Source of the DNA: Mucispirillum schaedleri ASF457
Lineage (GTDB): Bacteria; Chrysiogenota; Deferribacteres; Deferribacterales; Mucispirillaceae
NCBI RefSeq assembly: GCF_000487995.2
Contig: NZ_CP097562.1
Location: 1,795,001 to 1,859,000 of the forward strand
Length of the DNA stretch: 64,000 nt
Reading direction: 5' to 3'
Below the pieces are notes generated by a model. The model was given only the letters and a program-made list of their open reading frames with translations, made no database searches and was not told the origin of the DNA. Positions 19,047 through 21,571 of the stretch are shown here, piece by piece (position 1 is the stretch's first letter; every line of letters starts with the position of its first letter). A program made the translations under genes and the position numbers.

Positions 19047-19076
19047 CTATAAATTGTTTGGAGAGATAATTTATAG
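19047..19076 (+). promoter_or_regulatory. Flagellin leader hairpin presenting GGAGAGAT
   Basis: A perfect 9-bp stem CTATAAATT (19047-19055)/AATTTATAG (19068-19076) closes a 12-base loop GTTTGGAGAGAT. It lies five bases before the Shine-Dalgarno CTGGAGGA (19082-19089) of the flagellin gene. A GGA loop plus a GGA Shine-Dalgarno is the layout of CsrA-controlled flagellin leaders (for example hag in Bacillus). Loop bases 19059-19067 are complementary to a loop in the 3' UTR. Confidence 0.65.
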
Positions 19077-19094
19077 TAAAACTGGAGGAAAATT

Positions 19095-21380
19095 ATGGCA
19101 CTTTCAATCGTTAACAACCCAACAGCAATAGGCGCACAAGGCGGCGTAAACAGCGTAAACAGCAAACTTGCAAAAACAATAAAATCATTATCAACTGGTT
19201 TAAGAATAAATACTGCAGCAGATGATGCATCAGGTTTAGCAGTATCAGAAAAATTAAGAGCACAGATTTCTGGTTTAAACAAAGCAGCAACAAATGCTCA
19301 AGATGCAATAAGTATGTTACAGACAGCAGAGGGAGCAATGGGCTCAATGACATCTATGGTTCAGCGTATAAGAGAACTTGCAGTTCAGGCAGGCGACCCA
19401 GCTTATACAACTAATGACAGAGCAATGTTACAGCTTGAAGTAGACCAGTTAAAAGAAGAAATAGACAGAGTTTCTAATTCAACAGAATTTAACACTAAAA
19501 AACTTTTAAATGGTGATGCAGCTGCATTATGGTCAGCATCTACTGATAATATAGAAGCAGTAGTTAAAGGCACAGCAGTAGAAGGCAACTACAAATTATC
19601 TTATGATGTAGACCCTGGCAAAAACTCAGTATATAAATCAAATATTATGCGTCTTGGTGAAGGTGCAATGTCTTATGACATAAATACAAACGGCACAAGC
19701 ATAACTAAATTTGATAATATTAAAGGTATGATGCGTGAAAGCAACACTCAAATTAAAGTTCAAGGCACAGCAGCAACAACAGCTTCAGCAGCATTTACTG
19801 GCGGAACAGGCGGCATGAACTCTGCTGCAATGACAGCAGCTGGCTTTGAAACAGCAAGTGCAGCAGCAACTGGTGCAAACTCATATTCAATAGAGTTTGA
19901 AGCAGTAGGCGACAGGACAGCAAGCGGCACAGGTCAAATCCGTTTCCGTGTAATGAATACTAAAACTGGTGAAATCAGTGAGTGGGCAACAGCAGCAGTA
20001 AATAGTGCAGGGGCAGTATTAAATGCATCAGCCATATCAACTGGTTTAGTAGGTATTAGTAAAGCAGTGTTGTCATCAGCTGCTGCAACTTTTACAGCAA
20101 CAGCAGCTTGGACAAATGGAGATAAAATGCTTGTGAGTGTTGCAGGTGCAAGAGCAGCAAACTCAGCTGGTGCATCAATACAAATAGGCTCAACAGGCTC
20201 TACTTTACATATTACTGCAGGTGCTACAAGTGAGGATAAACAGCTTACTCATGTAATACACACAGCACAGATGGATAAAGCTGGTAATGTATACTATGGA
20301 CAAATGGATATAACTCTTGAAAGAGGCAAAGTGGTATCTGGAACAGGAACAATAGATATTCTTGGCACAGGTGATGTTGCTTCTAAATATACAAAACTTT
20401 CTCAGCTGGCACAGTTTACTAACTCAGATGGTAGAATGATTTTAAGTAATACACAAGAAATCAGCATATATGCAGGCAATGGTAAAACAGCAAAAATTAC
20501 TCTTGAAGGCAGCGATACAATAGCAGATTTAGAAAGCAAATTAACAGCAGCTTTAGTTGAACAGTTAGATATGGGGGCAGATAATACAAATACAGCAGCA
20601 ACTACAGTTAATAATAACTTAGTAAAATATGTAGAAACTCCAACAGGTGGAGACCATGCAGTAGAAGGCACATTTGTAATACAAAGTGCAGTGCTTGGTG
20701 AAAAATCTAACTTAACATTTGTAGGTGATGAGGCTGTGTTATCAGCATTAGGTATCACTCAAATTCAGGAAGCTGCAGACTCTGCATTAAATGTAAGAGT
20801 AACAGATGCCCACACTGGTGAGTTTATTGGCGAAGATGTAGTTACAGATAACAGATTAAGAAATGTTATACAAGGTGTAGATGTTATCATTAATCCAGAA
20901 TCTGCTGCAGATGTAAACTTTATAAATGGTAAAATGGTGTTTACAGATAAACTTGGTGCAGAAGAGGCATTCCTGCATATTAAAGATAACTCCACAAAAG
21001 CAGCAGTTGGTGCAAATGAAGGACAAGTGATTGATATATCAATAGGCAGATTAGACACAGTAGGTATGGGAATTGATGGCATAAATGTAGCAACATTTAA
21101 TGATGCACAAAAAGCAATAACAAAATTAGACATGGCATTAGAGCAAATCTCAGCTGCAAGAGCGATAGCTGGTGCACAAATGAACAGGTTAGAGTATACA
21201 ATTACTAACTTAAATACAACAAGAGAAAATATGGTATCAGCAGAAAGCCGTATAAGAGATTTAGATATAGCTCAAGCATCAAGCGATTTAGCAGCACAGC
21301 AAGTATTACTTCAGTCTGCAACAGCAATGCTTGCACAAGCTAACCAAATTCCAAGCTATGCAGCACAATTATTACAATAA
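19095..21380 (+). CDS. fliC: Flagellin with large variable domain
   Basis: The 761-residue product is the filament subunit and is far longer than common flagellins (about 400-550). The conserved D0/D1 N-terminus (about 1-165) includes SLSTGLRINTAADDASGLAV and QRIRELAVQAG, and the C-terminal D1/D0 (about 670-761) includes QISAARAIAGAQMNRLEYTI and ends in AQLLQ. Between them about 500 residues of Ala/Thr/Gly-rich, beta-type sequence form the exposed D2/D3 domains. The QRxRELAVQ segment, needed for TLR5 recognition in enteric flagellins, is kept, unlike in epsilonproteobacteria. A strong site CTGGAGGA precedes the ATG. Distant sigma-28 promoters, two terminators and 5'/3' UTR hairpins surround it. 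Confidence 0.97.
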   Translation: MALSIVNNPTAIGAQGGVNSVNSKLAKTIKSLSTGLRINTAADDASGLAVSEKLRAQISGLNKAATNAQDAISMLQTAEGAMGSMTSMVQRIRELAVQAGDPAYTTNDRAMLQLEVDQLKEEIDRVSNSTEFNTKKLLNGDAAALWSASTDNIEAVVKGTAVEGNYKLSYDVDPGKNSVYKSNIMRLGEGAMSYDINTNGTSITKFDNIKGMMRESNTQIKVQGTAATTASAAFTGGTGGMNSAAMTAAGFETASAAATGANSYSIEFEAVGDRTASGTGQIRFRVMNTKTGEISEWATAAVNSAGAVLNASAISTGLVGISKAVLSSAAATFTATAAWTNGDKMLVSVAGARAANSAGASIQIGSTGSTLHITAGATSEDKQLTHVIHTAQMDKAGNVYYGQMDITLERGKVVSGTGTIDILGTGDVASKYTKLSQLAQFTNSDGRMILSNTQEISIYAGNGKTAKITLEGSDTIADLESKLTAALVEQLDMGADNTNTAATTVNNNLVKYVETPTGGDHAVEGTFVIQSAVLGEKSNLTFVGDEAVLSALGITQIQEAADSALNVRVTDAHTGEFIGEDVVTDNRLRNVIQGVDVIINPESAADVNFINGKMVFTDKLGAEEAFLHIKDNSTKAAVGANEGQVIDISIGRLDTVGMGIDGINVATFNDAQKAITKLDMALEQISAARAIAGAQMNRLEYTITNLNTTRENMVSAESRIRDLDIAQASSDLAAQQVLLQSATAMLAQANQIPSYAAQLLQ

Positions 21381-21388
21381 CTATAAAA

Positions 21389-21410
21389 CTCCCCCTTTTA
21401 AAAGGGGGAG
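21389..21410. repeat. Perfect palindrome directly after flagellin
   Basis: CTCCCCCTTTT is followed by its exact inverse AAAAGGGGGAG, nine bases after the flagellin stop codon. No T tract follows on the plus strand, so for the flagellin mRNA it is more likely a 3' protective hairpin; on the minus strand it is followed by TTTTATAG and could terminate. Confidence 0.7.
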
Positions 21411-21470
21411 TATAAAAAAACTTTGGCTTTTGCAAAATAGTTTTAAGAAAATATTTTACAAAATCCAAAG

Positions 21471-21503
21471 ATATACAAAGCATCTCTCCACAGCTTTGTA
21501 TAT
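21471..21503 (+). promoter_or_regulatory. 3' UTR hairpin with loop complementary to flagellin leader loop
   Basis: ATATACAAAG (21471-21480) pairs with CTTTGTATAT (21494-21503), extended by C-G, leaving loop ATCTCTCCACA. ATCTCTCCA (21482-21490) is the exact complement of TGGAGAGAT in the leader hairpin loop (19059-19067). It is one of several hairpins in a 190-base 3' UTR (also CTTTGG/CCAAAG and GTGT/ACAC). Confidence 0.55.
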
Positions 21504-21530
21504 TCCATAAAAAGTGTAGTGCCAATACAC

Positions 21531-21571
21531 AAAAAAAATGGTTTAGGTCCTCCAGCCTAAACCATTTTTTT
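21531..21571. terminator. Bidirectional terminator with anti-Shine-Dalgarno loop
   Basis: AATGGTTTAGG (21537-21547) pairs with CCTAAACCATT (21556-21566), flanked by A8 on the left and T7 on the right, so it serves both flagellin (+) and the CoiA-like gene (-). The 8-base loop TCCTCCAG (21548-21555) is the exact complement of the flagellin Shine-Dalgarno CTGGAGGA. Confidence 0.85.

Follow-up and report, generated by a model that had tools for sequence, protein, structure and literature searches.

A flagellin gene of Mucispirillum schaedleri with 3' UTR hairpin loops complementary to its own leader

Described systems and the Mucispirillum locus

To our knowledge, very few bacterial self-pairings between 5' and 3' UTRs are known, icaR being the main proven case, and we know of none in a flagellin under CsrA-FliW control or involving several loop contacts. 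Likewise, we are aware of no CsrA target whose 3' UTR is complementary to its own CsrA sites. A double kissing complex, one contact of which is located at the Shine-Dalgarno (SD), is formed in E. coli by fhlA and OxyS, a trans-acting RNA assisted by Hfq. In Staphylococcus aureus, the icaR 3' UTR carries an anti-SD motif (UCCCCUG) that pairs with the SD of the same mRNA, either in cis or in trans, and deletion of Hfq left IcaR levels unchanged (PMC3868564). Autoregulation of this type is characterised by hindered ribosome loading or by formation of an RNase III substrate. S. aureus RNAIII uses C-rich hairpin loops to form kissing contacts with leader loops and with the ribosome binding site of rot or coa mRNA (PMC2837412). 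As for flagellins, E. coli FliX is a small RNA from the fliC 3' UTR that lowers flagellin (PMC10578931), and two GGA stem-loops of C. jejuni flaA serve CsrA as repression sites, while the flaA leader in turn titrates CsrA (PMC4894983).

The flagellin described here belongs to M. schaedleri ASF457 and was analysed within a 64,000-nucleotide stretch of contig NZ_CP097562.1 (hereafter the window). Its 3' UTR resembles that of icaR by a motif complementary to the SD of its own mRNA. Yet, the icaR pairing is proven and the Mucispirillum one is predicted from sequence; the anti-SD is here a terminator loop (H5), one or two further loop pairs accompany it (H3 with L1 and L2, H4 with the start codon), gene and phylum are different and CsrA-type sites are overlapped. 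RNAIII is a separate trans-acting RNA, whereas the Mucispirillum loops are located within the target's own 3' UTR. With OxyS-fhlA, the locus shares two predicted loop-loop contacts, including one at the SD, but OxyS is trans-acting and Hfq-assisted and the gene is unrelated. FliX is bound by Hfq and pairs inside coding sequences, in contrast to loops that match leader and start codon in a 99% complete, single-contig genome in which Hfq was not detected; membership in the FliX family was rejected on the latter ground. On the 5' side, the gene is similar to the CsrA-FliW-controlled hag and flaA leaders (PMC4894983, PMC6529632): GGA occurs both in a leader hairpin loop and in the SD, and the genome contains csrA and fliW, which adjoin each other. 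The locus stands apart by several anti-leader loops, that of the terminator included, behind a flagellin with CsrA-type sites in a genome with no detectable Hfq. A literature search on Mucispirillum revealed no description of such an element.

Organization and conservation of the flagellin locus

The 2.35-Mb genome harbours several flagellin-type paralogs, only one of which is followed by the conserved 3' UTR. The 190 nt past its stop codon fold into five hairpins, the last of which is an intrinsic terminator (z = -10 versus dinucleotide shuffles). Features are given below in window coordinates.

18428..18546, plus strand: two sigma-28-like promoters, TAAAG-N-CCGATA at 18428 and 18521, conserved in all orthologs
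18878..18950, plus strand: L1, upstream hairpin with apical loop AAGUGGAGAG, including GUGGAGAG at 18914-18921
19047..19076, plus strand: L2, leader hairpin with loop UUGGAGAG and two compensated stem pairs
19082..19089, plus strand: Shine-Dalgarno CUGGAGGA, containing GGA (CsrA-type site)
19095..21380, plus strand: gene for a 761-aa flagellin; the genome holds six flagellin-type paralogs in all
19096..19102, plus strand: UGGCACU at the start codon and codons 2-3, complement of AGUGCCA in H4
21388..21411, plus strand: H1, 10-bp GC-rich hairpin directly after the stop codon
21421..21470, plus strand: H2, long interrupted hairpin
21471..21503, plus strand: H3, hairpin with loop AUCUCUCCACA and invariant octamer CUCUCCAC at 21484-21491
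21513..21530, plus strand: H4, 5-bp hairpin GUGUA-GUGCCAA-UACAC, invariant in 7 species, with AGUGCCA at 21518-21524
21532..21571, plus strand: H5, intrinsic terminator hairpin with loop UCCUCCAG at 21548-21555

On the 5' side, the L1 stem was kept in 6 species, with 94% of the alignment cells paired and three pairs showing changes on both sides. The open L2 loop is UUGGAGAG, which the minimum free energy (MFE) fold narrows to GGAG through weak U-A and U-G pairs. L1 and L2 have the 7-mer UGGAGAG in common, which is longer than the GGA required for a CsrA site, as expected if both serve one partner.

The only sigma-28-like sites upstream of the flagellin are the two listed above, arranged in tandem about 93 nt apart. 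They are located 574-667 nt upstream of the gene, and two terminator-like hairpins (18684-18720 and 18808-18842, within window 18428-18843) stand between them and the flagellin. The flagellin mRNA would thus have to read through both hairpins, or else these end separate small RNAs. The presence of L1 in the flagellin mRNA depends on such read-through or on an unrecognised promoter. A conserved box, GGTATCAANATAATTGAGCC, precedes each of the two hairpins, and the same combination of box and terminator was also found upstream of other Mucispirillum flagellins; attenuation or antitermination is possible. The broader assumption that all boxes of the type GGTATCAA...GAGCC are leader elements was abandoned, one of nine matches falling by chance within the coding sequence of a gene that lies downstream of csrA. 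A further motif, TGCAAGGAC(R)AA, which resembles the CsrA high-affinity site, was observed at window position 18860 and at other loci, 87-340 nt upstream of most Mucispirillum flagellins and in variable context. One flagellin paralog (minus strand, 1858500-1863000 of the contig) is truncated to 499 aa, its counterparts in related species measuring 807-831 aa; a short ORF that resembles a transposase gene begins in the sequence beyond the break.

On the 3' side, H1 and H2 were conserved and displayed no leader match of note. The H5 terminator is bidirectional, and a U-G wobble pair closes its loop, leaving 6 nt open in the MFE fold. No Rfam family gave a hit above gathering score in the window. 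The possibility that the 3' UTR has a promoter of its own was rejected, none being conserved in the alignments and the consensus scan not rising above shuffles.

The 3' UTR occurred in 7/10 Mucispirillum genomes, solely behind this flagellin; a covariance model retrieved one copy per carrying genome and none behind paralogs. Six genomes carried the leader together with the 3' UTR, and 3 had neither; of the latter, two are at least 95% complete. In the seventh carrying genome (57% complete), the 3' UTR was present and the 5' half of the gene fell off the contig. The same model revealed no convincing 3' UTR in 36 other Deferribacterales genomes, and two weak matches outside the genus (E about 0.005) were discarded, antisense self-matches in the carrying genomes scoring at least as well. 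Throughout the order, flagellin leaders display a GGA-loop hairpin and a GGA-containing SD, the layout repressed by CsrA in C. jejuni flaA. The 3' UTR is thus an element added within the genus to a CsrA-type leader of greater age.

Conservation of the 3' UTR begins at the stop codon and stops abruptly after the T-run of the terminator. CUCUCCAC, GUGUAGUGCCAAUACAC and UCCUCCAG were unchanged in 7 species, which represent only two clades of one genus and share a 3' UTR conserved over much of its length. The stems of H3 and H5 varied with compensation (A-U to G-C; U-A to G-U to G-C). The preliminary description had held that a lack of loop co-conservation among relatives would speak against its reading; the loops turned out to be invariant in all carrying species, which leaves no partner covariation visible.

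Complementarity between 3' UTR loops and leader

Three of the 3' UTR loops matched sites on the 5' side. The H3 octamer CUCUCCAC was complementary to GUGGAGAG of L1 over 8/8 positions, making L1 a better partner than the L2 loop. The H3-L1 duplex amounts to -12.5 kcal/mol and opening of L1 costs 0.2 kcal/mol, whereas the L2 loop and the SD each cost 2-3 kcal/mol to open. Between H3 and L2, 7 bp (UGGAGAG) were invariant and 9-10 bp were reached in one clade only. Both partners, H3 on one side and L1 or L2 on the other, are located in hairpin loops whose stems are supported by compensation. The H5 loop UCCUCCAG was complementary to the SD CUGGAGGA over all 8 nt, and this was observed in 6/6 species having both ends. 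The weakest of the three loop matches was that of H4, whose AGUGCCA motif is the complement of UGGCACU in the start codon region. Within the presumed transcript, partner sites were confined to the leader and the start codon, the rest of the 2.3-kb ORF being free of them.

Four sequences had been reported in the preliminary description and all were recovered at their positions. The complementarity of the SD to the whole 8-base terminator loop held as described, on a wobble-closed loop. The other claim, of a leader loop, TGGAGAGAT, fully complementary to the H3 loop with both members in loops on perfect stems, was slightly overstated: the match is real and the H3 and L2 stems are compensated, but the last two of the nine bases (19066-19067) are paired in the L2 stem in every species. 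The better H3 partner upstream (L1) and the third loop (H4) had been overlooked.

The two clades differ in the bases flanking the H3 octamer (window 21482-21492 and relatives): in one these lengthen the L2 match to the 9-10 bp mentioned above, in the other they extend the L1 match to 9 bp. It looks as if the two clades favour different partners. Plain cofolding did not choose the loop pairings, kissing loops being beyond its model. As the three sites are not collinear, simultaneous pairing may be sterically limited.

Match length was discarded as a test against chance since AT-rich runs often give 8-mers by chance, and stacking energy was used in its place. Scored against the leader of the same gene, the best two flagellin loops reached -35.2, the next value among 243 other genes being -18.4. 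None of 14,640 random loop-leader pairings attained the flagellin's own energy, and none of 297 other leaders fitted its loops equally well, its own leader being far the best of 298. Orthologs scored like the flagellin itself, and five paralogs examined ranged from -3 to -11. Against dinucleotide-shuffled leaders, p was 2.5e-4 for H3, 2.6e-3 for H5 and 1.3e-2 for H4, and H3 and H5 jointly were equalled in 0/20,000 shuffles. In 400 kb of genome stretches (800 kb of strand sequence), TGGAGAG occurred 23 times and CTGGAGGA once. The complementarity is thus real and far beyond chance, in line with the preliminary argument that two matches are hard to explain by coincidence.

Proposed self-regulation and alternative readings

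The reading that we favour, with a probability of roughly 0.6, is that the 3' UTR, or a small RNA derived from it, pairs with its own leader, covers the SD and most likely represses translation, thereby excluding CsrA. The 3' UTR would act as a structured plus-strand RNA element in which H3 docks on the GGAGAG loops of L1, L2 or both, the H5 terminator loop covers the SD and blocks translation initiation, and H4 possibly pairs with the start codon region. With H5 on the SD and H3 on L1 or L2, initiation should be blocked and CsrA excluded. Repression would take place in cis within the mRNA, or in trans by an Hfq-independent small RNA processed from the 3' UTR. Since the loop pairings would cover the GGA motifs, which are the putative CsrA sites, both controls are predicted to be mutually exclusive. 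Pairing in the cell, the direction of its effect, the choice between cis and trans, small-RNA processing and competition with CsrA are what we infer from the sequences and folds, and the original view that the 3' UTR controls flagellin is partly supported. More tentatively, the arrangement may amount to an end-to-end self-regulating mRNA, whose 3' UTR, as a multi-loop antisense, closes a kissing complex and competes with CsrA, thus forming an RNA arm of the CsrA-FliW loop in a genome with no detectable Hfq.

The main rival, which we consider unlikely, reverses the effect: the 3' UTR or small RNA would mask GGA motifs from CsrA, so that flagellin mRNA escapes repression or ends its role as a CsrA sponge. 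Every partner of H3 and H5 indeed contains GGA, GGA-type leaders are found across the order, CsrA and FliW are present, and C. jejuni flaA provides a precedent with its two GGA stem-loops and titrating leader (PMC4894983). Such relief is nonetheless less likely than shut-off because H5 pairing would itself block the ribosome; in addition, the H4 target site is devoid of GGA and CsrA binding is here putative.

It is rather improbable that the element is a trans-acting small RNA serving mainly other mRNAs, its own-leader match being incidental or secondary. FliX from the fliC 3' UTR does have many targets (PMC10578931), and UCCUCC pairs over 6 nt with many GGAGGA Shine-Dalgarnos. A possible trans target was also noted in a rhodanese-like gene, whose SD, UUGGAGAG at 11565-11573, displays a 7-nt match to the H3 loop. 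Yet, the flagellin's own leader was far superior to the others among the 298 compared, and the flagellin paralogs matched no further than GGAGGA.

Even less probable is a minus-strand antisense transcript whose loops would reproduce the GGA sites of the leader and serve as decoys for CsrA. A complement on the plus strand reads as a copy on the minus strand, and the bidirectional terminator could fit such a transcript. However, variable stem positions displayed 12 G-U cells versus 2 A-C cells (the latter count omitting one column misplaced by a 2-nt insertion), which favours the plus strand, nothing was conserved beyond the terminator, where its promoter would sit, and the H4 match has no GGA.

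Finally, a chance match, or loops conserved for terminator efficiency or RNA stability, is very improbable: some 2% of random pairings do show a single 8-nt loop match, and conservation extends over much of the 3' UTR, including H1 and H2, for which no notable leader match exists, but the joint energy was never reached in the 14,640 pairings, three loops fit three adjacent control sites, and these loops were invariant in two clades whose stems differ.

If the proposed repression is true, a highly expressed structural gene would carry its own antisense in its terminator, and the locus would provide an example of RNA-based control without Hfq and of an antisense RNA competing with CsrA. Mucispirillum inhabits gut mucus, and flagellin is one of its principal points of contact with the host.
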